From Luidia sarsii (Eukaryota > Echinodermata > Asteroidea > Paxillosida > Luidiidae), in NCBI GenBank assembly GCA_949987565.1, contig OX465107.1, positions 5,535,659-5,599,658 on the forward strand: a DNA stretch of 64,000 nt, in the 5' to 3' direction. Every line of letters starts with the position of its first letter. The first letter of the stretch is position 1. Shown here one piece after another: positions 3,767 through 63,578 of this stretch. The notes below the pieces were generated by a model. It was not told where the DNA came from and ran no database searches. It worked only from the letters and a program-made list of their open reading frames with translations. The position numbers and the translations under genes are program-made.

Positions 3767-4537
3767 CTAACTGCAACATAGACGAACAACGAACTCGGCA
3801 CATTGGGCAAGTACTAATTTCCCACATAGACGTTCAATTAAGTTTAAACATACCATATGTTGTTAGTAATTATATAAGTATCACACAATCGGCAATCGCT
3901 GATCCAAATTCAGATGATGGCTTCTGAACCAGAAAAAATGACTGTTCTTATTTCCTCCTTGCTGTCTTGCAGATCTCCTGATGGTGAACATCACCCAGCT
4001 CTCCAGACCCATGAAGACGAGCCTCCCCATAATCCTCTAACAGCTTGGCACTGACTACGATGGGCACATCCTGACGTCCATCTGCAATGAGGTCAGTGTC
4101 AAAGGTCAACTTGCTGGGGGCCTGAATTAATCTCTTGGGTGATGAGTGTGGCTAAAAGCCAGGCACTTCATGCATGATGTCAAGAGTACTCAAGACTGGC
4201 TTATAGCCACAATGACTTTGAACATGGGCTTCACAGAGTGTTGGCACCACTGTCATGTCATGCACTCTCGTCTTCTTCTTCCCCTCCTAAACTACCATCT
4301 TCGGCCTCCTCTCCCTTCTCTTCCTCCCCATTCTCTGTCCTCTTCTTCCTCCTCCATCTTCTTCCTACTCTCCCTTCTCTTCCTCTCCCTTCTCTTTCTC
4401 CCCATTCTCTCTCTCCTCTTCCTCCCCTCCTCCTCTCCCATCTTCTCCCTCCTCTCCCTTTGCTTCTTCCCCATTCTCTCTCTTCTTCCTTCTACTCTCC
4501 CACCTTCTGCCTCCTCTCACTTCTCTTCCTTCCCACT
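3767..4537 (+). repeat. Higher-order repeat spacer, copy 2 (type B)
   Basis: Same organisation as copy 1, with diagnostic differences: CGCGTTGTGTGTCCTG before the palindrome (3751-3780), CACATAGACG after it, and a 7-bp addition giving GAGTACTCAAGACTGG in the link. The polypyrimidine tract spans about 4270-4537. It is nearly identical to copy 6. Confidence 0.9.
3973..4091 (+). pseudogene. Exon-like segment in spacer, copy 2 (119 bp)
   Basis: AG and GT borders and the in-frame TAA are as in copy 1. It differs by two missense changes, giving MKTS instead of METS and DYDGH instead of DYDEH. The length is unchanged, so phase is kept. Confidence 0.5.
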
Positions 4538-6925
4538 TCGTCCATGGGGCAGTTAGTGCTTGCCCAATGCGCTGAGTTAGTTGTTCGTCCACGGGGCAGT
4601 TAGTGCTTGCCCAATGCGTTGAGTTAGTTGTTCGTCCACGGGGCAGTTAGTGCTTGCACAATGCATTGAGTTCGTTGTTCGTCCATGGGGCAGTTAGTGC
4701 TTGCCCAATGTGCTGAGTTAGTTGTTCGTCCATGGGGCAGTTAGTGCTTGCACAATGCGCTGAGTTAGTTGTTCATCCACGGGGCAGTTAGTGCTTGCCC
4801 AATGCGCTGAGTTAGTTGTTCGTCCATGGGGCAGTTAGTGCTTGCCCAATGCGCTGAGTTAGTTGTTCGTCCATGGGGCAGTTAGTGCTTGCCCAATGCT
4901 CTGAGTTAGTTGTTTGTCCACGGGGCAGTTAGTGCTTGCACAATGCGCTGACTTAGTTGTTCGTCCATGGGGCAGTTAGTGCTTGCACAATGCGCTGAGT
5001 TAGTTGTTCGTCCATGGGGCAGTTAGTGCTTGCCCAATGCTCTGAGTTAGTTGTTTGTCCACGGGGCAGTTAGTGCTTGCACAATGCGCTGAGTTAGTTG
5101 TTTGTCCACGGGGCAGTCAGTGCTTGCCCAATGCGCTGAGTTAGTTGTTCGTCCATGGGGCAGTTAGTGCTTGCCCAATGCGCTGAGTTAGTTGTTCGTC
5201 CATGGGGCAGTTAGTGCTTGCACAATGCGTTGAGTTAGTTGTTTGTCCACGGGGCAGTTAGTGCTTGCACAATGCGCTGAGTTAGTTGTTCATCCACGGG
5301 TCAGTTAGTGCTTGCCCAATGCGCTGAGTTAGTTGTTCGTCCATGGGGCAGTTAGTGCTTGCCCAATGCGCTGAGTTCGTTGTTTGTCCATGGGGCAGTT
5401 AGTGCTTGCCCAATGCGCTGAGTTAGTTGTTCGTCCATGGGGCAGTTAGTGCTTGCACAATGCGCTGAGTTCGTTGTTTGTCCATGGGGCAGTTAGTGCT
5501 TGCCCAATGCGCTGAGTTAGTTGTTCGTCCATGGGGCAGTTAGTGCTTGCCCAATAGTTAGTGCTTGCCCAATGCGCTGAGTTAGTTGTTTGTCCATGGG
5601 GCAGTTAGTGCTTGCACAATGCGCTGAGTTAGTTGTTCGTCCATGTGGCAGTTAGTGCTTGCACAATGCGCTGAGTTAGTTGTTCGTCCATGGGGCAGTT
5701 AGTGCTTGCACAATGCTCTGAGTTAGTTGTTTGTCCACGGGGCAGTTAGTGCTTGCACAATGCGCTGAGTTAGTTGTTCGTCCATGGGGCAGTTAGTGCT
5801 TGCACAATGCGCTGAGTTCGTTGTTCGTCCATGGGGCAGTTAGTGCTTGCACAATGCGCTGAGTTCGTTGTTCGTCCATGTGGCAGTTAGTGCTTGCACA
5901 ATGCGCTGAGTTAGTTGTTCGTCCATGGGGCAGTTAGTGCTTGCACAATGCGCTGAGTTAGTTGTTTGTCCATGGGGCAGTTAGTGCTTGCACAATGCGC
6001 TGAGTTAGTTGTTCGTCCATGTGGCAGTTAGTGCTTGCACAATGCGTTGAGTTAGTTGTTCGTCCACGGGGCAGTTAGTGCTTGCACAATGCATTGAGTT
6101 AGTTGTTCGTCCATGGGGCAGTTAGTGCTTGCACAATGCGCTGAGTTCGTTGTTTGTCCATGGGGCAGTTAGTGCTTGCCCAATGCGCTGAGTTAGTTGT
6201 TCGTCCATGGGGCAGTTAGTGCTTGCACAATGCATTGAGTTAGTTGTTCGTCCATGGGGCAGTTAGTGCTTGCACAATGCGCTGAGTTCGTTGTTTGTCC
6301 ATGGGGCAGTTAGTGCTTGCCCAATGCGCTGAGTTAGTTGTTCGTCCATGGGGCAGTTAGTGCTTGCCCAATAGTTAGTGCTTGCCCAATGCGCTGAGTT
6401 AGTTGTTTGTCCATGGGGCAGTTAGTGCTTGCCCAATAGTTAGTGTTTGCCCAATGCGCTGAGTTAGTTGTTTGTCCATGGGGCAGTTAGTGCTTGCACA
6501 ATGTGTTGAGTTCATGGTTCATCGGTGGCAGTTAGTGCTTGCCTAGCATGCCGAGTGCGCTGTTCATCTGCGTGGTAAATTTTAGTTCTTGCCCAATGCG
6601 CTGAGTTCTCTGTTTGTGTGCATGATAGTTAGTGCTTGCCCAATGCGCTGAGTTCGCTGTTCATCTATGTGGCAGTTAGTGCTTGCCCAATGCGCTGAGT
6701 TTGCTTTTCGTCTATGGGGCAGTTAGTGCTTGCCCAATGCGCTGAGTTCGCTGTTCATCTATGTGGCAGTTAGTGCTTGCCCAATGCGCTGAGTTTGCTG
6801 TTCGTCTATGGGGCAGTTAGTGCTTGCTCAACGCGCTGTGTCCTGTTCGTCTGCTTTCTGCTTATCCAACTCGCTCAGTTCTCTGTTCGTCTACATGTAC
6901 ATGTACCGGTATGTTGCAGTTAGTG
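4538..6925 (+). repeat. 47-bp satellite array 2
   Basis: By length about 42 canonical monomers, then the degenerate edge from about 6500. Truncated monomers occur near 5553, 6371 and 6438, which suggests the edge module itself has been duplicated inside the array. The opening monomer order matches array 6 (15786 onward). Confidence 0.95.
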
Positions 6926-7686
6926 CTAACTGCAACATAGACGAACAACGAACTCGGCACATTGGGCAAGTACTAATTTCCCACGTAGAGGTTCAATTAA
7001 GTTTAAACATACCATATGTTGTTAGTAATTATATAAGTATCACACAATCGGCAATCGCTGACCCAAATTCGGATGATGGCTTCTGAACCAGAAAAAATGA
7101 CTGTTCTTATTTCCTTCTTGCTGTCTTGCAGATCTCCTGATGGTGAACATCACCCAGCTCTCCAGACCCATGGAGACAAGCCTCCCCATAATCCTCTAAC
7201 AGCTTGGCACTGACTACGATGAGCACATCCTGACGTCCATCTGCAATGAGGTCAGTGTCAAAGGTCAACTTGCTGGGGGCCAGAATTAATCTCTTGGGTG
7301 ATGAGTGTGGCTAAAAGCCAGGCACTTCATGCATGATGTCAAGACTGGCTTATAGCCACAATGACTTTGAACATGGGCTTCACAGAGTGTTGGCACCACT
7401 GTCATGTCATGCACTCTCGTCTTCTTCTTCCCCTCCTAAACTACCATCTTCGGCCTCCTCTCCCTTCTCTTCCTCCCCATTCTCTGTCCTCTTCTTCCTC
7501 CTCCATCTTCTTCCTTCTCTCCCTTCTCTTCCTCTCCCTTCTCTTTCTCCCCATTCTCTCTCTCCTCTTCCTCCCCTCCTCCTCTCCCATCTTCTCCCTC
7601 CTCTCCCTTCGCTTCTTCCCCATTCTCTCTCTTCTTCCTTCTACTCTCCCACCTTCTGCCTCCTCTCACTTCTCTTCCTTCCCACT
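6926..7686 (+). repeat. Higher-order repeat spacer, copy 3 (type A)
   Basis: Virtually identical to copy 1, including the palindrome at 6910-6939 and the polypyrimidine tract from about 7413 to 7686. Confidence 0.9.
7132..7250 (+). pseudogene. Exon-like segment in spacer, copy 3 (119 bp)
   Basis: Same sequence as copy 1, with intact AG/GT borders and the same in-frame TAA. Confidence 0.5.
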
Positions 7687-9633
7687 TCGTCCATGGGGCA
7701 GTTAGTGCTTGCCCAATGCGCTGAGTTAGTTGTTCGTCCACGGGGCAGTTAGTGCTTGCCCAATGCGTTGAGTTAGTTGTTCGTCCATGGGGCAGTTAGT
7801 GCTTGCCCAATGCGTTGAGTTAGTTGTTCGTCCACGGGGCAGTTAGTGCTTGCACAATGCATTGAGTTCGTTGTTCGTCCATGGGGCAGTTAGTGCTTGC
7901 CCAATGCGCTGAGTTAGTTGTTCGTCCATGGGGCAGTTAGTGCTTGCACAATGCGCTGAGTTAGTTGTTCATCCACGGGGCAGTTAGTGCTTGCCCAATG
8001 CGCTGAGTTAGTTGTTCGTCCATGGGGCAGTTAGTGCTTGCCCAATGCGCTGAGTTAGTTGTTCGTCCATGGGGCAGTTAGTGCTTGCACAATGCGTCGA
8101 GTTAGTTGTTTGTCCATGGGGCAGTTAGTGCTTGCACAATGCGCTGAGTTAGTTGTTCGTCCATGGGGCAGTTAGTGCTTGCACAATGCGCTGAGTTCGT
8201 TGTTCGTCCATGGGGCAGTTAGTGCTTGCACAATGCGCTGTGTTCGTTGTTCGTCCATGTGGCAGTTAGTGCTTGCACAATGCGCTGAGTTAGTTGTTCG
8301 TCCATGGGGCAGTTAGTGCTTGCACAATGCGCTGAGTTAGTTGTTCGTCCATGGGGCAGTTAGTGCTTGCCCAATGCTCTGAGTTAGTTGTTTGTCCACG
8401 GGGCAGTTAGTGCTTGCACAATGCGCTGAGTAAGTTGTTCATCCACGGGGCAGTTAGTGCTTGCCCAATGCGCTGAGTTAGTTGTTCGTCCATGGGGCAG
8501 TTAGTGCTTGCCCAATGCGTTGAGTTAGTTGTTCGTCCATGGGGCAGTTAGTGCTTGCACAATGCGTCGAGTTAGTTGTTTGTCCACGGGGCAGTTAGTG
8601 CTTGCACAATGCGCTGAGTAAGTTGTTCATCCACGGGGCAGTTAGTGCTTGCCCAATGCGCTGAGTTAGTTGTTCGTCCATGGGGCAGTTAGTGCTTGCC
8701 CAATGCGCTGAGTTAGTTGTTCGTCCATGGGGCAGTTAGTGCTTGCACAATGCGTCGAGTTAGTTGTTTGTCCATGGGGCAGTTAGTGCTTGCACAATGC
8801 ATTGAGTTAGTTGTTCGTCCATGGGGCAGTTAGTGCTTGCACAATGCGCTGAGTTCGTTGTTTGTCCATGGGGCAGTTAGTGCTTGCCCAATGCGCTGAG
8901 TTAGTTGTTCGTCCATGGGGCAGTTAGTGCTTGCACAATGCATTGAGTTAGTTGTTCGTCCATGGGGCAGTTAGTGCTTGCACAATGCGCTGAGTTCGTT
9001 GTTTGTCCATGGGGCAGTTAGTGCTTGCCCAATGCGCTGAGTTAGTTGTTCGTCCATGGGGCAGTTAGTGCTTGCCCAATAGTTAGTGCTTGCCCAATGC
9101 GCTGAGTTAGTTGTTTGTCCATGGGGCAGTTAGTGCTTGCCCAATAGTTAGTGCTTGCCCAATGCGCTGAGTTAGTTGTTTGTCCATGGGGCAGTTAGTG
9201 CTTGCACAATGTGTTGAGTTCATGGTTCATCGGTGGCAGTTAGTGCTTGCCTAGCATGCCGAGTGCGCTGTTCATCTGCGTGGTAAATTTTAGTTCTTGC
9301 CCAATGCGCTGAGTTCTCTGTTTGTGTGCATGATAGTTAGTGCTTGCCCAATGCGCTGAGTTCGCTGTTCATCTATGTGGCAGTTAGTGCTTGCCCAATG
9401 CGCTGAGTTTGCTTTTCGTCTATGGGGCAGTTAGTGCTTGCCCAATGCGCTGAGTTCGCTGTTCATCTATGTGGCAGTTAGTGCTTGCCCAATGCGCTGA
9501 GTTTGCTGTTCGTCTATGGGGCAGTTAGTGCTTGCTCAACGCGCTGTGTCCTGTTCGTCTGCTTTCTGCTTATCCAACTCGCTCAGTTCTCTGTTCGTCT
9601 ACATGTACATGTACCGGTATGTTGCAGTTAGTG
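7687..9633 (+). repeat. 47-bp satellite array 3
   Basis: About 32 canonical monomers by length. It starts with the same monomer order as arrays 1 and 5, then diverges after about ten units. The edge contains two truncated monomers (near 9080 and 9147), as at the end of array 2. Confidence 0.95.
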
Positions 9634-10394
9634 CTAACTGCAACATAGACGAACAACGAACTCGGCACATTGGGCAAGTACTAATTTCCCACGTAGAGGT
9701 TCAATTAAGTTTAAACATACCATATGTTGTTAGTAATTATATAAGTATCACACAATCGGCAATCGCTGACCCAAATTCGGATGATGGCTTCTGAACCAGA
9801 AAAAATGACTGTTCTTATTTCCTTCTTGCTGTCTTGCAGATCTCCTGATGGTGAACATCACCCAGCTCTCCAGACCCATGGAGACAAGCCTCCCCATAAT
9901 CCTCTAACAGCTTGGCACTGACTACGATGAGCACATCCTGACGTCCATCTGCAATGAGGTCAGTGTCAAAGGTCAACTTGCTGGGGGCCAGAATTAATCT
10001 CTTGGGTGATGAGTGTGGCTAAAAGCCAGGCACTTCATGCATGATGTCAAGACTGGCTTATAGCCACAATGACTTTGAACATGGGCTTCACAGAGTGTTG
10101 GCACCACTGTCATGTCATGCACTCTCGTCTTCTTCTTCCCCTCCTAAACTACCATCTTCGGCCTCCTCTCCCTTCTCTTCCTCCCCATTCTCTGTCCTCT
10201 TCTTCCTCCTCCATCTTCTTCCTTCTCTCCCTTCTCTTCCTCTCCCTTCTCTTTCTCCCCATTCTCTCTCTCCTCTTCCTCCCCTCCTCCTCTCCCATCT
10301 TCTCCCTCCTCTCCCTTCGCTTCTTCCCCATTCTCTCTCTTCTTCCTTCTACTCTCCCACCTTCTGCCTCCTCTCACTTCTCTTCCTTCCCACT
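9634..10394 (+). repeat. Higher-order repeat spacer, copy 4 (type A)
   Basis: Virtually identical to copies 1, 3 and 5. Palindrome at 9618-9647 and polypyrimidine tract from about 10121 to 10394. Confidence 0.9.
9840..9958 (+). pseudogene. Exon-like segment in spacer, copy 4 (119 bp)
   Basis: Same sequence as copy 1, with intact splice-like borders and the shared TAA. Confidence 0.5.
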
Positions 10395-11054
10395 TCGTCC
10401 ATGGGGCAGTTAGTGCTTGCCCAATGCGCTGAGTTAGTTGTTCGTCCACGGGGCAGTTAGTGCTTGCCCAATGCGTTGAGTTAGTTGTTCGTCCATGGGG
10501 CAGTTAGTGCTTGCCCAATGCGTTGAGTTAGTTGTTCGTCCATGGGGCAGTTAGTGCTTGCCCAATAGTTAGTGCTTGCCCAATGCGCTGAGTTAGTTGT
10601 TTGTCCATGGGGCAGTTAGTGCTTGCACAATGTGTTGAGTTCATGGTTCATCGGTGGCAGTTAGTGCTTGCCTAGCATGCCGAGTGCGCTGTTCATCTGC
10701 GTGGTAAATTTTAGTTCTTGCCCAATGCGCTGAGTTCTCTGTTTGTGTGCATGATAGTTAGTGCTTGCCCAATGCGCTGAGTTCGCTGTTCATCTATGTG
10801 GCAGTTAGTGCTTGCCCAATGCGCTGAGTTTGCTTTTCGTCTATGGGGCAGTTAGTGCTTGCCCAATGCGCTGAGTTCGCTGTTCATCTATGTGGCAGTT
10901 AGTGCTTGCCCAATGCGCTGAGTTTGCTGTTCGTCTATGGGGCAGTTAGTGCTTGCTCAACGCGCTGTGTCCTGTTCGTCTGCTTTCTGCTTATCCAACT
11001 CGCTCAGTTCTCTGTTCGTCTACATGTACATGTACCGGTATGTTGCAGTTAGTG
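10395..11054 (+). repeat. 47-bp satellite array 4 (collapsed)
   Basis: Only about four or five canonical monomers lie between the polypyrimidine tract and the edge module, against 23-60 in the other arrays. The first three monomers match the start of array 1 and the sequence then jumps to the array end (truncated monomer near 10566). This is the product expected from an unequal crossover or replication slippage deletion. Confidence 0.9.
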
Positions 11055-11815
11055 CTAACTGCAACATAGACGAACAACGAACTCGGCACATTGGGCAAGT
11101 ACTAATTTCCCACGTAGAGGTTCAATTAAGTTTAAACATACCATATGTTGTTAGTAATTATATAAGTATCACACAATCGGCAATCGCTGACCCAAATTCG
11201 GATGATGGCTTCTGAACCAGAAAAAATGACTGTTCTTATTTCCTTCTTGCTGTCTTGCAGATCTCCTGATGGTGAACATCACCCAGCTCTCCAGACCCAT
11301 GGAGACAAGCCTCCCCATAATCCTCTAACAGCTTGGCACTGACTACGATGAGCACATCCTGACGTCCATCTGCAATGAGGTCAGTGTCAAAGGTCAACTT
11401 GCTGGGGGCCAGAATTAATCTCTTGGGTGATGAGTGTGGCTAAAAGCCAGGCACTTCATGCATGATGTCAAGACTGGCTTATAGCCACAATGACTTTGAA
11501 CATGGGCTTCACAGAGTGTTGGCACCACTGTCATGTCATGCACTCTCGTCTTCTTCTTCCCCTCCTAAACTACCATCTTCGGCCTCCTCTCCCTTCTCTT
11601 CCTCCCCATTCTCTGTCCTCTTCTTCCTCCTCCATCTTCTTCCTTCTCTCCCTTCTCTTCCTCTCCCTTCTCTTTCTCCCCATTCTCTCTCTCCTCTTCC
11701 TCCCCTCCTCCTCTCCCATCTTCTCCCTCCTCTCCCTTCGCTTCTTCCCCATTCTCTCTCTTCTTCCTTCTACTCTCCCACCTTCTGCCTCCTCTCACTT
11801 CTCTTCCTTCCCACT
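11055..11815 (+). repeat. Higher-order repeat spacer, copy 5 (type A)
   Basis: Virtually identical to copy 1. Palindrome at 11039-11068 and polypyrimidine tract from about 11542 to 11815. Confidence 0.9.
11261..11379 (+). pseudogene. Exon-like segment in spacer, copy 5 (119 bp)
   Basis: Same sequence as copy 1, with intact splice-like borders and the shared TAA. Confidence 0.5.
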
Positions 11816-14800
11816 TCGTCCATGGGGCAGTTAGTGCTTGCCCAATGCGCTGAGTTAGTTGTTCGTCCACGGGGCAGTTAGTGCTTGCCCAATGCGTTGA
11901 GTTAGTTGTTCGTCCATGGGGCAGTTAGTGCTTGCCCAATGCGTTGAGTTAGTTGTTCGTCCACGGGGCAGTTAGTGCTTGCACAATGCATTGAGTTCGT
12001 TGTTCGTCCATGGGGCAGTTAGTGCTTGCCCAATGCGCTGAGTTAGTTGTTCGTCCATGGGGCAGTTAGTGCTTGCACAATGCGCTGAGTTAGTTGTTCA
12101 TCCACGGGGCAGTTAGTGCTTGCCCAATGCGCTGAGTTAGTTGTTCGTCCATGGGGCAGTTAGTGCTTGCCCAATGCGCTGAGTTAGTTGTTCGTCCATG
12201 GGGCAGTTAGTGCTTGCACAATGCGTCGAGTTAGTTGTTTGTCCATGGGGCAGTTAGTGCTTGCACAATGCGCTGAGTTAGTTGTTCGTCCATGGGGCAG
12301 TTAGTGCTTGCACAATGCGCTGAGTTCGTTGTTCGTCCATGGGGCAGTTAGTGCTTGCACAATGCGCTGAGTTCGTTGTTCGTCCATGTGGCAGTTAGTG
12401 CTTGCACAATGCGCTGAGTTAGTTGTTCGTCCATGGGGCAGTTAGTGCTTGCACAATGCGCTGAGTTAGTTGTTCGTCCATGGGGCAGTTAGTGCTTGCA
12501 CAATGCGCTGAGTTCGTTGTTCGTCCATGGGGCAGTTAGTGCTTGCCCAATGCTCTGAGTTAGTTGTTTGTCCACGGGGCAGTTAGTGCTTGCACAATGC
12601 GCTGAGTTAGTTGTTCATCCACGGGGCAGTTAGTGCTTGCCCAATGCGCTGAGTTAGTTGTTCGTCCATGGGGCAGTTAGTGCTTGCCCAATGCGCTGAG
12701 TTAGTTGTTCGTCCATGGGGCAGTTACTGCTTGCACAATGCGTCGAGTTAGTTGTTTGTCCATGGGACAGTTAGTGCTTGCACAATGCGCTGAGTTAGTT
12801 GTTCGTCCATGGGGCAGTTAGTGCTTGCACAATGCGCTGAGTTAGTTGTTCGTCTATGGGGCAGTTAGTGCTTGCACAATGCGTTGAGTTAGTTGTTCAT
12901 CCATGTGGCAGTTAGTGCTTGCACAATGCTCTGAGTTAGTTGTTCATCCATGGGGCAGTTAGTGCTTGCACAATGCTCTGAGTTAGTTGTTCATCCATGG
13001 GGCAGTTAGTGCTTGCACAATGCGCTGAGTTAGTTGTTCGTCCATGTGGCAGTTAGTGCTTGCACAATGCGCTGAGTTAGTTGTTCGTCCATGGGGCAGT
13101 TAGTGCTTGCACAATGCTCTGAGTTAGTTGTTTGTCCACGGGGCAGTTAGTGCTTGCACAATGCGCTGAGTTAGTTGTTCGTCCATGTGGCAGTTAGTGC
13201 TTGCACAATGCGCTGAGTTAGTTGTTCATCCATGTGGCAGTTAGTGCTTGCACAATGCGCTGAGTTAGTTGTTCATCCATGTGGCAGTTAGTGCTTGCAC
13301 AATGCGCTGAGTTAGTTGTTCATCCATGTGGCAGTTAGTGCTTGCACAATGCGCTGAGTTAGTTGTTCGTCCATGTGGCAGTTAGTGCTTGCACAATGCG
13401 CTGAGTTAGTTGTTCATCCATGTGGCAGTTAGTGCTTGCACAATGCTCTGAGTTAGTTGTTCATCCATGTGGCAGTTAGTGCTTGCACAATGCTCTGAGT
13501 TAGTTGTTCATCCATGGGGCAGTTAGTGCTTGCACAATGCGCTGAGTTAGTTGTTCGTCCATGTGGCAGTTAGTGCTTGCACAATGCGCTGAGTTAGTTG
13601 TTCGTCCATGGGGCAGTTAGTGCTTGCACAATGCTCTGAGTTAGTTGTTTGTCCACGGGGCAGTTAGTGCTTGCACAATGCGCTGAGTTAGTTGTTCGTC
13701 CATGGGGCAGTTAGTGCTTGCACAATGCGCTGAGTTCGTTGTTCGTCCATGGGGCAGTTACTGCTTGCACAATGCGCTGAGTTCGTTGTTCGTCCATGTG
13801 GCAGTTAGTGCTTGCACAATGCGCTGAGTTAGTTGTTTGTCCATGGGGCAGTTAGTGCTTGCACAATGCGCTGAGTTAGTTGTTCGTCCATGGGGCAGTT
13901 AGTGCTTGCCCAATGCTCTGAGTTAGTTGTTCGTCCATGGGGCAGTTAGTGCTTGCACAATGCGCTGAGTTAGTTGTTCGTCCATGGGGCAGTTAGTGCT
14001 TGCACAATGCTCTGAGTTAGTTGTTTGTCCACGGGGCAGTTAGTGCTTGCACAATGCGCTGAGTTAGTTGTTCGTCCATGGGGCAGTTAGTGCTTGCACA
14101 ATGCGCTGAGTTAGTTGTTTGTCCATGGGGCAGTTAGTGCTTGCACAATGCGCTGAGTTAGTTGTTCGTCCATGGGGCAGTTAGTGCTTGCACAATGCGC
14201 TGAGTTAGTTGTTTGTCCATGTGGCAGTTAGTGCTTGCACAATGCGCTGAGTTAGTTGTTTGTCCATGGGGCAGTTAGTGCTTGCACAATGCGCTGAGTT
14301 AGTTGTTCGTCCATGGGGCAGTTAGTGCTTGCACAATGCGCTGTGTTAGTTGTTCGTCCATGGGGCAGTTAGTGCTTGCACAATGCGTTGAGTTAGTTGT
14401 TCGTCCACGGGGCAGTTAGTGCTTGCACAATGCATTGAGTTAGTTGTTCGTCCATGGGGCAGTTAGTGCTTGCACAATGCGCTGAGTTCGTTTTTTGTCC
14501 ATGGGGCAGTTAGTGCTTGCACAATGCGCTGAGTTAGTTGTTCGTCCATTGGGCAGTTAGTGCTTGCCCAATAGTTAGTGCTTGCCCAATGCGCTGAGTT
14601 AGTTGTTTGTCCATGGGGCAGTTAGTGCTTGCACAATGTGTTGAGTTCATGGTTCATCGGTGGCAGTTAGTGCTTGCCTAGCATGCCGAGTGCGCTGTTC
14701 ATCTGCGTGGTAAATTTTAGTTCTTGCCCAATGCGCTGAGTTCTCTGTTTGTGTGCATGATAGTTAGTGCTTGCCCAATGCGCTGAGTTCGCAGTTCATC

Positions 14801-15015
14801 TATGTGGCAGTTAGTGCTTGCCCAATGCGCTGAGTTTGCTGTTCGTCTATGTGGCAGTTAGTGCTTGCCCAATGCGCTGAGTTTGCTGTTCGTCTATGGG
14901 GCAGTTAGTGCTTGCTCAACGCGTTGTGTGTCCTGTTCGTCTGCTTTCTGCTTATCCAACTCGCTCAGTTCTCTGTTCGTCTACATGTACATGTACCGGT
15001 ATGTTGCAGTTAGTG
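11816..15015 (+). repeat. 47-bp satellite array 5, with a local expansion
   Basis: This is the longest array, about 60 canonical monomers. Up to about 12,800 the monomer order follows array 1 with only scattered changes. From about 12,840 to 13,550 a run of monomers carrying TTCATCCATGTGGCAG appears that is absent from array 1. The array then returns to an order like the end of array 1. This shows a local burst of monomer duplication after the larger block had been duplicated. Confidence 0.95.
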
Positions 15016-15785
15016 CTAACTGCAACATAGACGAACAACGAACTCGGCACATTGGGCAAGTACTAATTTCCCACATAGACGTTCAATTAAGTTTAAACAT
15101 ACCATATGTTGTTAGTAATTATATAAGTATCACACAATCGGCAATCGCTGATCCAAATTCAGATGATGGCTTCTGAACCAGAAAAAATGACTGTTCTTAT
15201 TTCCTCCTTGCTGTCTTGCAGATCTCCTGATGGTGAACATCACCCAGCTCTCCAGACCCATGAAGACGAGCCTCCCCATAATCCTCTAACAGCTTGGCAC
15301 TGACTACGATGAGCACATCCTGACGTCCATCTGCAATGAGGTCAGTGTCAAAGGTCAACTTGCTGGGGGCCTGAATTAATCTCTTGGGTGATGAGTGTGG
15401 CTAAAAGCCAGGCACTTCATGCATGATGTCAAGAGTACTCAAGACTGGCTTATAGCCACAATGACTTTGAACATGGGCTTCACAGAGTGTTGGCACCACT
15501 GTCATGTCATGCACTCTCGTCTTCTTCTTCCCCTCCTAAACTACCATCTTCGGCCTCCTCTCCCTTCTCTTCCTCCCCATTCTCTGTCCTCTTCTTCCTC
15601 CTCCATCTTCTTCCTACTCTCCCTTCTCTTCCTCTCCCTTCTCTTTCTCCCCATTCTCTCTCTCCTCTTCCTCCCCTCCTCCTCTCCCATCTTCTCCCTC
15701 CTCTCCCTTTGCTTCTTCCCCATTCTCTCTCTTCTTCCTTCTACTCTCCCACCTTCTGCCTCCTCTCACTTCTCTTCCTTCCCAC
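15016..15785 (+). repeat. Higher-order repeat spacer, copy 6 (type B)
   Basis: Nearly identical to copy 2, including the GAGTACTCAAGACTGG variant. Palindrome at 15000-15029 and polypyrimidine tract from about 15513 to 15785. Confidence 0.9.
15222..15340 (+). pseudogene. Exon-like segment in spacer, copy 6 (119 bp)
   Basis: Type B with MKTS, but DYDEH as in type A. Borders and the TAA are conserved. Confidence 0.5.
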
Positions 15786-17392
15786 TTCGTCCATGGGGCA
15801 GTTAGTGCTTGCCCAATGCGCTGAGTTAGTTGTTCGTCCACGGGGCAGTTAGTGCTTGCCCAATGCGTTGAGTTAGTTGTTCGTCCACGGGGCAGTTAGT
15901 GCTTGCACAATGCATTGAGTTCGTTGTTCGTCCATGGGGCAGTTAGTGCTTGCCCAATGTGCTGAGTTAGTTGTTCGTCCATGGGGCAGTTAGTGCTTGC
16001 ACAATGCGCTGAGTTAGTTGTTCATCCACGGGGCAGTTAGTGCTTGCCCAATGCGCTGAGTTAGTTGTTCGTCCATGGGGCAGTTAGTGCTTGCCCAATG
16101 CGCTGAGTTAGTTGTTCGTCCATGGGGCAGTTAGTGCTTGCCCAATGCTCTGAGTTAGTTGTTTGTCCACGGGGCAGTTAGTGCTTGCACAATGCGCTGA
16201 CTTAGTTGTTCGTCCATGGGGCAGTTAGTGCTTGCACAATGCGCTGAGTTAGTTGTTCGTCCATGGGGCAGTTAGTGCTTGCCCAATGCTCTGAGTTAGT
16301 TGTTTGTCCACGGGGCAGTTAGTGCTTGCACAATGCGCTGAGTTAGTTGTTTGTCCACGGGGCAGTCAGTGCTTGCCCAATGCGCTGAGTTAGTTGTTCG
16401 TCCATGGGGCAGTTAGTGCTTGCCCAATGCGCTGAGTTAGTTGTTCGTCCATGGGGCAGTTAGTGCTTGCACAATGCGTTGAGTTAGTTGTTTGTCCACG
16501 GGGCAGTTAGTGCTTGCACAATGCGCTGAGTTAGTTGTTCATCCACGGGTCAGTTAGTGCTTGCCCAATGCGCTGAGTTAGTTGTTCGTCCATGGGGCAG
16601 TTAGTGCTTGCCCAATGCGCTGAGTTCGTTGTTTGTCCATGGGGCAGTTAGTGCTTGCCCAATGCGCTGAGTTAGTTGTTCGTCCATGGGGCAGTTAGTG
16701 CTTGCACAATGCGCTGAGTTCGTTGTTTGTCCATGGGGCAGTTAGTGCTTGCCCAATGCGCTGAGTTAGTTGTTCGTCCATGGGGCAGTTAGTGCTTGCC
16801 CAATAGTTAGTGCTTGCCCAATGCGCTGAGTTAGTTGTTCGTCCATGGGGCAGTTAGTGCTTGCACAATGTGTTGAGTTCATGGTTCATCTGGGGCAGTT
16901 AGTGCTTGCCTAGCATGCCGAGTGCGCTGTTCATTTATTTGCGTGGTAAATTTTAGTTCTTGCCCAATGCGCTGAGTTCTCTGTTCATCTATGTGGCAGT
17001 TAGTGCTTGCCCAATGCGCTGAGTTCGCTGTTCATCTATGTGGCAGTTAGTGCTTGCCCAATGCGCTGAGTTTGCTGTTCGTCTATGGGGCAGTTAGTGC
17101 TTGCCCAATGCGCTGAGTTCGCAGTTCATCTATGTGGCAGTTAGTGCTTGCCCAATGCGCTGAGTTTGCTGTTCGTCTATGGGGCAGTTAGTGCTTGCCC
17201 AATGCGCTGAGTTTGCTGTTCGTCTATGTGGCAGTTAGTGCTTGCCCAATGCGCTGAGTTTGCTGTTCGTCTATGGGGCAGTTAGTGCTTGCTCAACGCG
17301 TTGTGTGTCCTGTTCGTCTGCATTCTGCTTATCCAACTCGCTCAGTTCTCTGTTCGTCTACATGTACATGTACCGGTATGTTGCAGTTAGTG
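15786..17392 (+). repeat. 47-bp satellite array 6
   Basis: About 23 canonical monomers in the same order as the first half of array 2, then an edge module with extra copies of the TTCATCTATGTGGCAG and TTTGCTGTTCGTCTATG variants (16,980-17,270). Confidence 0.95.
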
Positions 17393-18230
17393 CTAACTGC
17401 AACATAGACGAACAACGAACTCGGCACATTGGGCAAGTACTAATTTCCCACATAGACGTTCAATTAAGTTTAAACATACCATATGTTGTTAGTAATTATT
17501 AGTATCACACAATCGCCAATCGCTGACCCAAATTCGGATGATGGCTTCTGAACCAGAAAAATTACTGTTCTTATTTCCTCCTTGCTGTCTTGCAGATCTC
17601 CAGATGGTGAACATCACCCAGCTCTCCAGACCCATGGAGACGAGCCTCCCCATAATCCTCTAACAGCTTGGCACTGACTACGATGAGCACATCCTGACGT
17701 CCATCTGCAATGAGGTCAGTGTCAAAGGTCAACTTGCTGGGGGCCAGAATTAACCTCTTGGGTGATGAGTGTGGCTAAAAGCCAGGCACTTCATGCATGA
17801 TGTCAAGACTGGCTTATAGCCACAATGACTTTGAACATGGGCTTCACAGAGTGTTGGCACCACTGTCATGTCATGCACTCTCGTCTTCTTCTTCCCCTCC
17901 TAAACTACCATCTTCGGCCTCCTCTCCCTTCTCTTCCTCCCCATTCTCTGTCCTCTTCTTCCTCCTCCATCTTCTCCCTACTCTCCCTTCTCTTCCTCTC
18001 CCTTCTCTTTCTCCCCATTTTCTCTCTCCTCTTCTTTCCCCTCCTCTCCCATCTTCTCCCTCCTCTCCCTTCTCTTCCTCCCCATTCTCTCTCTCCTCTT
18101 TCTCCCCTCCTCCTCTCCCATCTTCTCCCTCCTCTCCCTTCGCTTCTTCCCCATTCTCTCTCTTCTTCCTTCTACTCTCCCACCTTCTGCCTCCTCTCAC
18201 TTCTCTTCCTTCCCACTCTCTCTCTCTGTC
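17393..18230 (+). repeat. Higher-order repeat spacer, copy 7 (type B, diverged)
   Basis: The last and most diverged spacer. Small indels lie near 17,500, and the polypyrimidine tract is longer (about 17,883-18,230) because a CTCCCATCTTCTCCCTCCTC block is duplicated. It passes directly into degenerate monomers, marking the right end of the higher-order repeat. Palindrome at 17377-17406. Confidence 0.9.
17596..17714 (+). pseudogene. Exon-like segment in spacer, copy 7 (119 bp)
   Basis: It starts CTCCAGATGG instead of CTCCTGATGG, giving LQMVN in place of LLMVN. The rest matches type A (METS, DYDEH), with the shared TAA and the GAG|GTCAGT border. A synonymous-looking phase is kept even in this diverged copy. 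Confidence 0.5.
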
Positions 18231-19330
18231 TCTTAGTTGCTTTAAGTTTGCTGTTTGTCTACATGTCAGTTAGTGCATGCCCCAATGTGCTAAGTTTGCT
18301 GTTTGTTTACGTGGTATTATTGATTGCCCAATGCATTCGCTGTTCACCTGTGTGGCAGGTAGTGCTTGCACAATGCACTGAGTTCTCTGTTTGTCTGTGT
18401 TTCAGTTAGTGCTTGGCCAATGCGCTTTTTGCTGTTTTACTGTGTGGCAGTTAGTTCCTACCCAACACGCTGGGTTCGCTGTTCGTCTACGTAGCAGTTA
18501 GTGCTTGCCCAACTCGCTGAGTTCAATGTTCGTCTGTATGGCAGTTAGTTTTTACCCAACATGCTGAGTTATCTGCTCATATGTATTACAGTTGGTGCTT
18601 GGCCAGTGCGCTGAGTTTGCTGTTCATCTGTGTGGCAGTTAGTGCTTGCCCAATGCGCTGAGTTCGCTGTTCATCTATGTGACAGTTAGTGCTTGCCCAA
18701 TGCGCTGAGTTCGCTGTTCATCTATGTGGCAGTTAATGCTTGCCCAATGCGCTGAGTTCGCTGTTCATCTATTTGGCAGTTAGTGCTTGCCCAATGCGCT
18801 GAGTTCGCTCTTCATCTGCGTGGCAGTTAATGCTTACCCATTGCACTGAGTTCACTGTTCATCTGTGTGGCAGTTAGTGCTTGCCCAATGCGCTGAGGTT
18901 GCTGTTCATCTGCGTGGCAGTTAATGCTTACCCATTGCACTGAGTTCACTGTTCATCTATGTGGCAGTTAGTGCTTGCCCAATGCGTTGAGTTTGCATGT
19001 TCATCTGCGAGGCAGTTAGTACTTCCCTATTGCACTGAGTTCGCTGTTCATCTGCGTGGCAGTTAGTGCTTGCCCATTGCACTGAGTTCGCTGTTCGTCT
19101 GTGTGGCAGTTGGTGCTTGGCCATCTCGCTTGAGTTCACTGTTCGTCTGTGTGGCAGTTAGTGCTTTGCCATCTCGCTGAGTTCACTGTTCGTCTGTGTG
19201 GCAGTTAGTGCTTGCCCAACTTGCTGAGTTTACTGTTCGTCTGCGTGGCAGTTAGTGCTTGGCAGTTAGTGCTTGGCCAATGCATTGAGATCGCTGTTTG
19301 TCTGCACGGCAGTTAGCACTTGCCCAGGAT
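18231..19330 (+). repeat. Degenerate 47-bp monomers at the right array boundary
   Basis: About twenty diverged monomers, recognised by CAGTTAGTGCTTGCCCAA and TTCGCTGTTCATCTGTGTGG words, decay progressively towards 19,330. Divergence rising towards the array edge is normal for satellites. Confidence 0.85.
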
Positions 19331-21042: not shown

Positions 21043-23644
21043 TCTACCCTCTACCCTCTACCCTCTACCCTCTACCCTCTACCCTCTACCCTCTACCCTC
21101 TACCCTCTACCCTCTACCCTCTACCCTCTACCCTCTACCCTCTACCCTCTACCCTCTACCCTCTACCCTCTACCCTCTACCCTCTACCCTCTACCCTCTA
21201 CCCTCTACCCTCTACCCTCTACCCTCTACCCTCTACCCTCTACCCTCTACCCTCTACCCTCTACCCTCTACCCTCTACCCTCTACCCTCTACCCTCTACC
21301 CTCTACCCTCTACCCTCTACCCTCTACCCTCTACCCTCTACCCTCTACCCTCTACCCTCTACCCTCTACCCTCTACCCTCTACCCTCTACCCTCTACCCT
21401 CTACCCTCTACCCTCTACCCTCTACCCTCTACCCTCTACCCTCTACCCTCTACCCTCTACCCTCTACCCTCTACCCTCTACCCTCTACCCTCTACCCTCT
21501 ACCCTCTACCCTCTACCCTCTACCCTCTACCCTCTACCCTCTACCCTCTACCCTCTACCCTCTACCCTCTACCCTCTACCCTCTACCCTCTACCCTCTAC
21601 CCTCTACCCTCTACCCTCTACCCTCTACCCTCTACCCTCTACCCTCTACCCTCTACCCTCTACCCTCTACCCTCTACCCTCTACCCTCTACCCTCTACCC
21701 TCTACCCTCTACCCTCTACCCTCTACCCTCTACCCTCTACCCTCTACCCTCTACCCTCTACCCTCTACCCTCTACCCTCTACCCTCTACCCTCTACCCTC
21801 TACCCTCTACCCTCTACCCTCTACCCTCTACCCTCTACCCTCTACCCTCTACCCTCTACCCTCTACCCTCTACCCTCTACCCTCTACCCTCTACCCTCTA
21901 CCCTCTACCCTCTACCCTCTACCCTCTACCCTCTACCCTCTACCCTCTACCCTCTACCCTCTACCCTCTACCCTCTACCCTCTACCCTCTACCCTCTACC
22001 CTCTACCCTCTACCCTCTACCCTCTACCCTCTACCCTCTACCCTCTACCCTCTACCCTCTACCCTCTACCCTCTACCCTCTACCCTCTACCCTCTACCCT
22101 CTACCCTCTACCCTCTACCCTCTACCCTCTACCCTCTACCCTCTACCCTCTACCCTCTACCCTCTACCCTCTACCCTCTACCCTCTACCCTCTACCCTCT
22201 ACCCTCTACCCTCTACCCTCTACCCTCTACCCTCTACCCTCTACCCTCTACCCTCTACCCTCTACCCTCTACCCTCTACCCTCTACCCTCTACCCTCTAC
22301 CCTCTACCCTCTACCCTCTACCCTCTACCCTCTACCCTCTACCCTCTACCCTCTACCCTCTACCCTCTACCCTCTACCCTCTACCCTCTACCCTCTACCC
22401 TCTACCCTCTACCCTCTACCCTCTACCCTCTACCCTCTACCCTCTACCCTCTACCCTCTACCCTCTACCCTCTACCCTCTACCCTCTACCCTCTACCCTC
22501 TACCCTCTACCCTCTACCCTCTACCCTCTACCCTCTACCCTCTACCCTCTACCCTCTACCCTCTACCCTCTACCCTCTACCCTCTACCCTCTACCCTCTA
22601 CCCTCTACCCTCTACCCTCTACCCTCTACCCTCTACCCTCTACCCTCTACCCTCTACCCTCTACCCTCTACCCTCTACCCTCTACCCTCTACCCTCTACC
22701 CTCTACCCTCTACCCTCTACCCTCTACCCTCTACCCTCTACCCTCTACCCTCTACCCTCTACCCTCTACCCTCTACCCTCTACCCTCTACCCTCTACCCT
22801 CTACCCTCTACCCTCTACCCTCTACCCTCTACCCTCTACCCTCTACCCTCTACCCTCTACCCTCTACCCTCTACCCTCTACCCTCTACCCTCTACCCTCT
22901 ACCCTCTACCCTCTACCCTCTACCCTCTACCCTCTACCCTCTACCCTCTACCCTCTACCCTCTACCCTCTACCCTCTACCCTCTACCCTCTACCCTCTAC
23001 CCTCTACCCTCTACCCTCTACCCTCTACCCTCTACCCTCTACCCTCTACCCTCTACCCTCTACCCTCTACCCTCTACCCTCTACCCTCTACCCTCTACCC
23101 TCTACCCTCTACCCTCTACCCTCTACCCTCTACCCTCTACCCTCTACCCTCTACCCTCTACCCTCTACCCTCTACCCTCTACCCTCTACCCTCTACCCTC
23201 TACCCTCTACCCTCTACCCTCTACCCTCTACCCTCTACCCTCTACCCTCTACCCTCTACCCTCTACCCTCTACCCTCTACCCTCTACCCTCTACCCTCTA
23301 CCCTCTACCCTCTACCCTCTACCCTCTACCCTCTACCCTCTACCCTCTACCCTCTACCCTCTACCCTCTACCCTCTACCCTCTACCCTCTACCCTCTACC
23401 CTCTACCCTCTACCCTCTACCCTCTACCCTCTACCCTCTACCCTCTACCCTCTACCCTCTACCCTCTACCCTCTACCCTCTACCCTCTACCCTCTACCCT
23501 CTACCCTCTACCCTCTACCCTCTACCCTCTACCCTCTACCCTCTACCCTCTACCCTCTACCCTCTACCCTCTACCCTCTACCCTCTACCCTCTACCCTCT
23601 ACCCTCTACCCTCTACCCTCTACCCTCTACCCTCTACCCTCTCT
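21043..23644. repeat. Telomere-like heptamer satellite (CCCTCTA)n / (TAGAGGG)n
   Basis: About 2.6 kb of a single 7-bp unit, roughly 371 copies. The phase of the repeat relative to each 420-base interval never changes from start to end, so no indel is visible. The minus strand reads (TAGAGGG)n, with GGG runs separated by four bases, which fits the pattern for intramolecular G-quadruplexes. It differs from the common animal telomere TTAGGG by one added base and rearranged spacing. It is flanked on both sides by non-telomeric DNA, so it is internal to this assembly. Confidence 0.97.
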
Positions 23645-42799: not shown

Positions 42800-42960
42800 T
42801 CATCCACTTATCTAAGGTCTGGAGAGGAAGGTTTGCAGTGACACCATGTAACATCTCTTTTGAGAAGGAGTGTGTGGCTCTGAAAAGAGCCGGTAACTCA
42901 ACACTTCGAGCAGTGTGTACTCTGCCCGCCGTCAGGAGACTGCTAGATTCCAACTATCAT
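42800..42960 (-). mobile_element. Penelope-like terminal repeat, family B (left, inverted)
   Basis: On the minus strand, CTGACGG...GCTCGAAGTGTTGAG is followed by the stem-loop GGCTCTTTTCAGAGCC (plus 42,876-42,891), then CTTCTCAAAAGAGATG and CACTGCAAACCTTCCTC. The same order occurs on the plus strand at 44,185-44,315 and on the minus strand at 60,294-60,430. Diverged relatives lie at about 52,040-52,170 and 61,850-61,980. Confidence 0.65.
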
Positions 42961-42989
42961 CAGTGCTTATAAGTGTTGCTGAGAGTGCT

Positions 42990-43149: not shown

Positions 43150-44190
43150 CCAAAGGTAGAGGAGACCCAGGAGGCAGACTACATGTAGGTGATGGGTGAG
43201 GTGGAGATGTCCGTGGGTGTAGAAGACTCATTGGACTGAAGTGGTTGCCATATGTTGCTGAACACCGATATCCTGAGGGGCAGCATTGTGCTTGAAGATC
43301 TCGATGGTCTCCCTCACCCGATGGAGGTGCCATCGCTCAATGCTGGTGATGAGTTTGGCACCACTCCACTGGATGACATGGTCCTTCTCATTTGAGAGCT
43401 TGATGATCCCTGACTTGTCGTAATCACCCTTATGGCCATGGGCTTTGTGTGGGTTAAGTTTAGTGGGGAGGTCGCCACATGTCGCTGATGTTAACAACAA
43501 TATCCTGAGGGACAGTGTTGTGCTTGAAGATCTCGATGGCCTCCTTCAGAAGATGGGAGTGCCATCTCTCAATGCCAGGGATGAGTTTGGCACTGCTCCA
43601 CTGGATGACATGGTCCTCATGCGAGTACTCGATGATCCAAGACTTGTCGTAATCACCCTTATACGGCCATGGGCTTTGTGTTTGTTGGGTCTAGTGGGGA
43701 GGTCCCTACCAGTCTCTCCAACGTACTCTTTGCCGCATGTGCAAGGGATCTTGTAAACTACAGGTCTGGTATCTGCCTCATGTCTATCCTTGCGGGTCTG
43801 GGTGAGGTTCCGGATCTTGTTGGGTGCCATTTGGAAAACCCTGACGTTGTGTTTGTTCAGGGTAAGTTGGATCTTGTTGAGAGGTACTGCCCAAGTACAG
43901 GAAGGTGACAGCACGTGATCTTGTAAACTGCAATCTGGAATCCGGATCGTGCCTATAGATCCTTGTAGGGTGAAGTTCCAGATCTTGTTGGGTGCCATGT
44001 GGAAAACCCTGATGCTGTGTCTGTTCAGGGCTGGTTGGATCTTGTGAGAGGTACTGCCCAAGTACGGGAGGCTGACAGCATGAGTGTCCCTCCAAGGTTG
44101 ACCTTGGGTAGAGGAGACCCTTTGGTGATGGCGGGCTCTGGGGTCTTGGGTCTTGAGTTGGCGTCCAGAGTAGCCATTCATTGAAACGTT
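43150..44190 (-). pseudogene. Penelope-like retroelement, GIY-YIG endonuclease remnant (family B)
   Basis: Two partial, tandem copies of the C-terminal endonuclease lie here. The upstream piece (about 43,550-43,790) reads VVYKIPCTCGKEYVGETG (GIY and YIG motifs) and then TRPNKHKAHG. The second (about 43,228-43,480) reads PHKAHGHKGDYDKSG, DHVIQWSGAKLI and ERWHLHRVRETIEIF. Cys-rich CTCGK before YVGETG and a terminal W..R.RE.I motif are typical of the nuclease domain attached to Penelope-like reverse transcriptases. No reverse transcriptase is present. It is a 5'-truncated, rearranged copy enclosed by inverted family-B ends. Confidence 0.75.
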
Positions 44191-44315
44191 GAGTTACCGG
44201 CTCTTTTCAGAGCAACACACTGCTTCTCAAAAGAGATGCGTTACATGTTGTCACTGCAAACCTTCCTCTTGGTACTTCCACCGTGCAAACCTTTAAGTCT
44301 CATCTAAAGGTCTGG
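44185..44315 (+). mobile_element. Penelope-like terminal repeat, family B (right)
   Basis: Reads GAAACGTTGAGTTACC, then the stem-loop GGCTCTTTTCAGAGC (44,199-44,213; last base pair altered), CTTCTCAAAAGAGATG and GTCACTGCAAACCTTCCTC. Inverted with respect to the copy at 42,800-42,960. Confidence 0.65.
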
Positions 44316-44366: not shown

Positions 44367-44494
44367 GTGATATACAAAAATGTTGCAAACCTTTTTACTG
44401 ACTAAAATTACCAAAATGCAAATCTCAAAATTTAGTGGGCTTGACGTTTCGAACCTAGCAGGACCTTTCTTAAAGGTCCTGCTAGGATTGAAAC
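44367..44494. mobile_element. Penelope-like end, family A, with fold-back tip
   Basis: Reads GTGATATACAAAAATGTTGC ... AAATTTAGTGGGC, then ACGTTTCGAACCTAGCAGGA followed at once by its reverse complement (TCCTGCTAGGATTGAAAC). Two element ends are joined head to head with the sequence beyond the tip lost. Confidence 0.75.
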
Positions 44495-44719
44495 TTTGAC
44501 ATTTCTTTTATTTGAATAGATTTATAGATATTTTTCTTAACATGCAGCAGGCCAATCAGTGATGAAATCATAAACAATTTACATTGCATTATGCTAACAC
44601 TGACCAGATAGGAGACCTTATAAGGTACACATACTATGGGAAGGCCAGCCCTAGTCTCGTGACTGCATAACCTCAGATAAACAGCACCAATCTTCCCGCA
44701 ATAAGGGCAGAGCGATACT

Positions 44720-60293: not shown

Positions 60294-60430
60294 TTGCGGT
60301 GACACCATGTTTATCATCTCTTTTGAGTCTGAGTGTGGCTCTGAAAAGAGCCGGTGACTCAACGTTTCGAGCAGTGCGTACTCTGCTCGTCGTCAGGAGA
60401 CTGCTGGATTCCAACTATCATATAAAGGTG
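60294..60430 (-). mobile_element. Penelope-like terminal repeat, family B, with hammerhead-like core and histone-type stem-loop
   Basis: The minus strand reads CTGACGA (plus 60,390-60,396), a 7-bp stem CGAGCAG/CTGCTCG with loop AGTACGCA, then AAACG, close to the hammerhead core CUGANGA-stem II-GAAA. It is followed by GGCTCTTTTCAGAGCC (plus 60,337-60,352), identical to the consensus animal histone mRNA 3' stem-loop. Hammerhead motifs are known in the terminal repeats of Penelope-like elements. I cannot build stems I and III with confidence. Confidence 0.6.
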
Positions 60431-61538: not shown

Positions 61539-62177
61539 CTATTAGGAGGAAAGTGAAAAGAAAGGGGTGGGGGGGGGGCGGTGATAAGCAAGGTACCAGG
61601 AAGAAAACCAAACATCAACGTGTACAAAGAACGCAACTTTAGCACTGAATGGGGTCGTAGAGGAAGGACCTTCGAAAAAGAGTTCCCCTTTTGTTTCAAT
61701 CAAAGTGCGAAGCCGAATAGATTAGGAGCAGGGGAAAAGATGACATGTTGGTGTCAGAAAGATGGCTTCAATCTACTGGGGACTACACATAAATGTATAC
61801 CAATGAAAAGTGTCTTGAAGCCTCCTGAAGACGAACAGAGTATAGACCTACTGTTTCAAATGTTGAGATTCTCCGATTCTTTTCAGAACTACACATACTG
61901 GTAGGGTCTACTCGCAAAAGAGAACTTTGTATGGTGTCACCGCAATTCTGCTATCCTCCCCATGAAAACCTTCAAATATCATTTGAAAAGTGTCTTTCTA
62001 AACAACTTTGGACCAATCTTTTTAGTGGCCGATGGCTCTCACTCTTCCCTCGTGTCTCGACGGTCCGGGTTTTACGTATATCGTAGATAATTCAAATCCT
62101 AATGGCAAGAACTTTGAGAATCCTTCCTGCACTGGGCAGGAAGCGTCCGGTGACCCTGGGTCAGTTTGAGTACTTAC
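61539..62177. other. Intron of the phosphatase gene (minus strand)
   Basis: It contains a G-rich run on the plus strand (61,563-61,581), and a decayed family-B retroelement end at about 61,850-61,980 (TGTTGAGATTCTCCGATTCT, TTTTCAGAACTACACA, GCAAAAGAGAAC, GGTGTCACCGCAA). No additional exon is needed by phase. Confidence 0.5.
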
Positions 62178-63235: not shown

Positions 63236-63578
63236 GAGTGTGGCTCTAAGGAGAGCCAAATGCACCGGCCAATCAGCAGTCATTAACCATACATATTCAT
63301 GAGCCCATGCACTGATGTATTGTCAATGTAGACAGCAAACAATAATACAAGTATTAGTGTGGCTCTAAGGAGAGCCGAATGCACCGGCCAATCAGCAGTC
63401 ATTAACCATACATATTCATGAGCCCATGCACTGATGAATTGTCAATGTAGACAGCAAACAATAATACAAGTATGAGTGTGGCTCTAAGGAGAGCCTAATG
63501 CACCGGCCAATCAGCAGTCATTAACCATACATATTAATGAGCCCATGCACTGATGTATTGTCAAACTAGCAGTGATTC
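63236..63578. repeat. Three 119-bp tandem repeats with hairpin and CCAAT words
   Basis: TGGCTCTAAGGAGAGCC starts at 63,241, 63,360 and 63,479, i.e. a 119-bp period. Each unit contains a GGCTCT/AGAGCC hairpin, GGCCAATCAGC (CCAAT), and TACATATTCATGAGCCCATG. Copies differ at only a few bases. The third unit is cut short near 63,565. It sits in an intron of the phosphatase if the gene continues upstream. Confidence 0.9.

Follow-up and report, generated by a model that had tools for sequence, protein, structure and literature searches.

The closest described relatives of the locus considered here are Penelope-like elements (PLEs) with a GIY-YIG endonuclease (Penelope/Poseidon type). As presented in the available part of the report on the anole element PAc (PMC11167929), they combine a reverse transcriptase (RT) and GIY-YIG frame with a minimal hammerhead in the repeat, and PAc has an in-repeat tail with two RT start sites and both-strand priming traces. 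According to the same part of that report, cleavage and extension by the anole PLE protein involve both strands, and reverse transcription begins at two internal sites. PLE hammerheads have been characterised as minimal, without helix III, in the accessible portion of another study (PMC6155905). Replication-dependent histone mRNAs end in a hairpin (Rfam RF00032) that is served by SLBP and the U7 snRNP; mouse U7 base-pairs with an AAAGAG core, alteration of which reduces processing to less than 5% in the part of the source available (PMC7026596). Retrozymes, which are non-autonomous hammerhead retroelements, are present as short dispersed hammerhead copies (PMC7229834, available part).

The element described here resembles PAc in frame and hammerhead, but carries a histone stem-loop and a histone downstream element (HDE) between the hammerhead and the tail; the main text of the PAc report, as far as available, does not contain the word histone (PMC11167929). 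It shares with histone mRNAs the hairpin GGCTCTTTTCAGAGCC followed by AAAAGAGAT at near-host spacing, whereas both signals here belong to a retrotransposon, in which a hammerhead-like core precedes the hairpin by 8 nt and the 5' flank is another. Short dispersed hammerhead copies are shared with the retrozymes, although the core here belongs to the minimal PLE type and is associated with PLE frames, and the histone hairpin goes unmentioned in the available part of the retrozyme study (PMC7229834). Among the matches listed in a literature search, the scope of which left subscription journals mostly outside, there was no title pointing to a histone stem-loop in a PLE.

The features of the window, that is, the whole 64,000-nt stretch of Luidia sarsii DNA that was analysed, are collected in Table 1. 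The hairpins reported by the initial annotation are correct in both position and lettering, two of them being exact and the third having one mismatch. Its reading of the surroundings as a retroelement end of the Penelope-like kind was borne out by the remnant of a GIY-YIG frame, with core, hairpin and downstream element lying behind it on its strand at 42.94-42.85 kb.

Table 1. Positions of the PLE-derived and histone-type features in the window.
Feature	Position	Strand	Remarks
Decayed, frame-shifted 3' part of PLE ORF (end of RT, GIY-YIG endonuclease)	43261..44178	-	
TATA-like TATAAG	42966..42971	-	30 nt ahead of the A (42941) of CAGTCTCC
Hammerhead-like core	42897..42938	-	CTGACGG; one core base departs
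Stem-loop GGCTCTTTTCAGAGCC	42876..42891	-	Exact; Rfam RF00032 Histone3 37.8 bits (match 42851-42896; cut-off 34)
HDE-like AAAAGAGAT	42853..42861	-	14 nt behind stem-loop
GAAACGTTGAGTTACC	44183-44198	+	Precedes the next stem-loop copy
Stem-loop copy GGCTCTTTTCAGAGCA	44199..44214	+	One mismatch; inverted relative to the 42876 copy; RF00032 24.5 bits (44194-44238), under the cut-off of 34
HDE-like AAAAGAGAT	44229-44237	+	Behind the 44199..44214 copy
Minimal hammerhead-like core	60358..60399	-	By sequence; expected cut between 60361 and 60360
Parts of this core	60396-60390; 60388-60383 / 60374-60369; 60368-60365	-	CTGACGA; stem II GAGCAG / CTGCTC; GAAA
Stem-loop GGCTCTTTTCAGAGCC	60337..60352	-	Exact; Rfam RF00032 Histone3 37.9 bits (match 60313-60357; cut-off 34)
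HDE-like AAAAGAGAT	60316..60324	-	12 nt behind stem-loop; host H3 and H2B genes share these letters
Older stem-loop copy GATTCTTTTCAGAACT	61875..61890	+	With core and tail; absent from the initial annotation

The PLE remnant of the window could be aligned piecewise with P0001 at 42-60% and matched P0002, which carries PF01541, at 43%; no Pfam match was found in the decayed window frame itself. At least 127 scored P0001 matches are present genome-wide and several of them have open frames, the scoring having covered the best 116 of 2486 candidates. The aligned copies share one block composed of CAGTCTCC, the hammerhead-like core, GAGTTACC, the stem-loop, ACACTCCTTCTC, AAAAGAGAT and a tail containing ACATGGTGTCACCGCAAACC. 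Core, stem-loop and HDE-like motif occur in the same order in another two PLE lineages, which stand at 78% and 65% to P0001, and these lineages and the window copy all retain core, stem-loop and AAGAGA. The fixed place that had been claimed for the SLBP-type hairpin, as recognised by sequence, is supported. The 41% lineage (L098) has a TATA box, a hammerhead-like core CTGATGA..GAAACGTCG and many open frames, with no histone hairpin in 401 nt of 3' flank. These lineage statements are based on one 3' flank per lineage together with the dispersed short copies that share those repeats. Neither AATAAA nor ATTAAA was found in 801 nt around the 3' end in the window, and AGTAAA occurs there twice, beyond the tail. 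The carrier is best explained as the terminal repeat of a PLE clade equipped with a host-type histone 3'-end cassette.

Many copies are arranged as head-to-head pairs with their tails facing outward. Target-site duplications of 10-12 bp were recognised at L034 (CAAGTAAATG) and L037 (GTATTATAAT) and, by eye and outside the 15 automatic pairs, at L031 (TATATCATAGTG) and L032 (AATTCTCATGA). A flank word of at least 9 nt was common to both sides in 6 of the 15 automatic inverted pairs, compared with 6 of 210 mismatched controls. Head-to-head PLE insertions with one long-tailed and one short-tailed arm were seen at L031 (6560-6860) and L034 (3820-4090). Such two-tailed insertions, by analogy, fit priming on both strands of the target, as the two tail lengths would agree with the both-strand priming and two RT starts in the available account of the anole PLE (PMC11167929). 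Sixty-eight of 92 exact-hairpin copies align for 45-92 nt beyond the hairpin (92 nt being the length of the template, and hence the upper bound of measured extension), which indicates that the RT templates of these copies had not undergone cleavage at the histone site; the remaining copies stop earlier by truncation or decay. Fossils of histone-cut RNA were sought at 2-8 nt behind the hairpin, where three of the 92 copies end, one of them through an internal deletion, and no pile-up was present. Four of 76 copies (three from one tandem array and one non-element) had been excluded, and the same four were left out before the 92 were counted.

A tandem histone cluster lies on contig C18 of the same genome, and three 3' flanks from it were assigned to H3, H2B and H2A by their C-terminal codons. 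The H3 and H2B genes (L093 and L094) end in AAACGGCTCTTTTCAGAGCCATCAAACTTTCCCAAAAGAGATTG and AAACGGCTCTCTTCAGAGCCACCACATTTTCAAAAAAGAGATC, with AAAAGAGAT 13 nt behind the hairpin; the histone downstream element that the initial annotation had proposed to look for is thus present in the element with the same letters at 12-14 nt. The H2A gene ends in AAACGGCTCTGACGGAGCCACCACATATTCACTAAGAGACG, with a variant hairpin GGCTCTGACGGAGCC and the HDE TAAGAGAC, which recurs in the HDE-like TTAAGAGAC of the 65% lineage. Histone3 scores were 38.5 and 38.7 bits for host H3 and H2B compared with 35.1 for the 78% lineage (cut-off 34), and the stem-loop of the 65% lineage reached only 26.7 bits, under that cut-off. 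Where the 3' side is long (68 copies), AAGAGA was found within 26 nt in 48 and was missing from 20; AAAGAG was within 40 nt in 41, and in 29 of those it stands exactly 13 nt from the stem-loop, compared with 14 nt in H3/H2B. The 5' flank of the stem-loop is TTACC, TCCTCC or CCTCA in the elements compared with AAAC in the histone genes.

The best U7 candidate scored a sub-threshold 26.3 bits (cut-off 34) and carries AUCUCUUUU, the complement of AAAAGAGAT; the energy of its duplex with the HDE was matched by 3 to 21 of 300 shuffles, a suggestive result at most, and the U7 model itself holds CUCUUU. With the 5' end of mouse U7 as proxy, a weak test, median duplex energies over 55 copies were -11.4 compared with -7.6 in shuffles, while the control windows gave -10.1 upstream and -4.2 in the tail.

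The hammerhead-like core claimed by the initial annotation is supported. It reads CTGACGA-C-GAGCAG..CTGCTC-GAAACGTT/GAG (slash, expected cut), and the minus strand from 60396 to 60337 runs CTGACGA-C-GAGCAG-..-CTGCTC-GAAACGTTGAGTCACC-GGCTCTTTTCAGAGCC, so that CUGANGA, stem II and GAAA are in place, with a single extra unpaired base ahead of stem II and with stem III missing. The window, nine loci and six further pieces were compared with the Rfam hammerhead models at E limits of 5 or 10, and none of the models matched. Across 33 aligned copies, stem II is 84% paired, with three of its six pairs changed on both sides; the three pairs of stem I are 82-89% paired with no paired change, and core bases deviate in some copies.

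Sixty-four of the 92 copies have 5' ends 4-70 nt ahead of the stem-loop. Twenty-one lie at 6-11 nt, compared with 5.7 on the crude assumption of an even spread (p 9e-8), and 19 at 45-53 nt, where 8.6 were expected on the same assumption (p 6e-4); nine are at 12-37 nt. The first group coincides with the expected hammerhead cut, GUU/GAG, although it includes several inverted pairs, the joint of which may arise otherwise. The second coincides with CAGTCTCC, which in the window copy lies 30 nt behind the TATA-like box at 42971, and from this cluster the A at 42941 is presumed to be the transcription start. Both groups are taken as RNA 5' ends.

Judged from sequence, SLBP and U7 probably, if with much reserve, act on the transcripts of the PLE, and read-through RNA would serve as template. 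The coding-strand order is TATA-like box, presumed start in CAGTCTCC, minimal hammerhead core, 8 nt, stem-loop, 12-14 nt, HDE and tail, the block coming after the RT-endonuclease frame and reverse transcription presumably beginning in the tail. Transcripts would traverse the frame and then, past the stem-loop in the downstream repeat, be cut by SLBP and the U7 snRNP, yielding a PLE messenger without a poly(A) tail, while transcripts that escape the cut would keep the tail and become the template for reverse transcription. The hammerhead may strip the capped leader, so that the stem-loop would come to lie at a new 5' end. The use of SLBP and U7 is proposed as the best explanation given that hairpin and HDE have near-host spacing, are kept across lineages and are missing from the distant PLE. 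The borrowing of histone 3' processing put forward by the initial annotation therefore keeps its host-type hairpin and HDE, but not its bearing on the reverse-transcribed RNA of those 68 of 92 copies; it is the messenger, and not the template end, that the histone-type signal would serve. Weighing against this reading are the long 3' sides of most copies, the differing 5' flank and the low score of the 65% lineage, and an identical block ahead of the frame would have to evade cutting.

The long 3' sides would be accommodated if SLBP on the stem-loop aided export, stability or translation of a hammerhead-decapped RNA that has the stem-loop at its new 5' end and undergoes no histone-type cut, as the tail is retained in most copies. 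The start of the stem-loop 8 nt past the expected hammerhead cut and the excess of 5' ends 6-11 nt ahead of it also speak for such a role, which nevertheless seems unlikely, since a host-lettered HDE at near-host spacing, a signal that serves U7 cutting, is left unexplained.

A role for the hairpin as a recognition or initiation structure of the PLE's own RT-endonuclease, with its histone likeness convergent, is more doubtful still. The hairpin lies between the ribozyme core and the RT start, an RNA region needed by the anole PLE protein in the available part of that report (PMC11167929), and tailed copies derive from RNA holding it. Convergence is nonetheless hard to reconcile with an HDE agreeing with the host in letters and spacing, with the 41% PLE copy that has no such hairpin, and with the two lineage versions of the stem (GGCTCT/AGAGCC to GGTTCT/AGAACC, a paired change), both of which match the histone consensus. 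The stem pair that varies here also varies among histone hairpins, which counts further against convergence.

Stem pairing was followed in 33 of 36 copies with core and tail, drawn from 131 relaxed copies (L011, L027 and L048 were excluded as truncated or odd). The helix is 98% paired, and the third pair has changed from C-G to U-A in five copies. Covariation score and percentage paired were above those of all 500 shuffles, which keep no account of relatedness; pairs changed on both sides were equalled in 50 and further pair types in 118 of the 500, so that two of the five measures of the whole structure fell within the ordinary range. In 100 listed GGYTCTTTTCAGARCC places, the third pair was C-G or U-A in 98 and mixed in two (one U-G, one C-A), a split that can be one paired change inherited by many copies. 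The 83 tail-anchored copies, which are not a fair sample (loci were chosen by exact hairpin, and palindrome readings in reverse complement are included), comprise 38 with the exact C-G form, nine with the exact U-A form, 25 within four mismatches and 11 with none.

Passive carriage of a histone 3' end captured long ago, and now without function, would be compatible with the loss of stem pairs in single dead copies. It is nevertheless very improbable, given that protein-distant lineages keep hairpin and AAGAGA though their flanks have changed and that the stem shows paired change; the uncompensated loss named beforehand as a refutation of the hairpin was confined to those single dead copies. 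The other refutation then named, a single captured histone gene, was ruled out by the 6,169 exact places (3083+3086) of GGCTCTTTTCAGAGCC in the 471-Mb genome, histone genes themselves included. Short as the motif is, chance resemblance has a negligible probability and was ruled out, with six window matches to GGCTCTTTTCAGAGCC at up to three mismatches compared with 0.90 expected (none of 100 shuffles reached six), a Histone3 E value of 1.7e-7 in 64 kb and 0+0 places genome-wide for the reversed 16-mer.

The more general GGYTCTTTTCAGARCC was found at 15,628 places (7912+7716; control 0+0), of which the C-G form accounts for 6,169. A PLE with thousands of copies that bear, next to a ribozyme-like core, the hairpin and downstream signal of the host histone genes is suggested to borrow the host histone 3'-end machinery. 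It is tentatively proposed, with more doubt than confidence, that the clade produces a second class of animal messenger with the histone stem-loop in place of a poly(A) tail, has its expression tied to S phase via SLBP/U7, and spreads about 15,000 matching hairpins, which may be decoys for these factors. If true, the histone 3'-end system would have a second user in a retroelement that carries the complete signal, retrotransposition would be linked to DNA replication, and 3'-end formation in PLEs would gain a testable mechanism.

Several neighbouring repeats were also observed. Three of the six window matches are a different-loop version, GGCTCTCCTTAGAGCC, inside a 119-bp tandem array (63236-63564, 2.8 copies) with sub-threshold Histone3 scores of 22.6-26.8 bits. 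A 115-bp tandem array at L035 (6176-6766), whose units contain PLE core remains and the stem-loop, is apparently a satellite grown from the PLE terminal repeat. Elsewhere in the window the 7-mer TCTACCC occurs 371 times in perfect form (21043-23642), and C/T-rich blocks interrupt a large tandem repeat with a 47-bp unit (895-19261). A dispersed repeat around GCAGGACCTTTCTCAAAGGTCCTGC (44440-44500), with similar letters in L002, L005, L018 and L021, forms in the window an inverted repeat flanked by the pair CGTTTCGAACC / GGATTGAAAC and may be a further ribozyme-like element.
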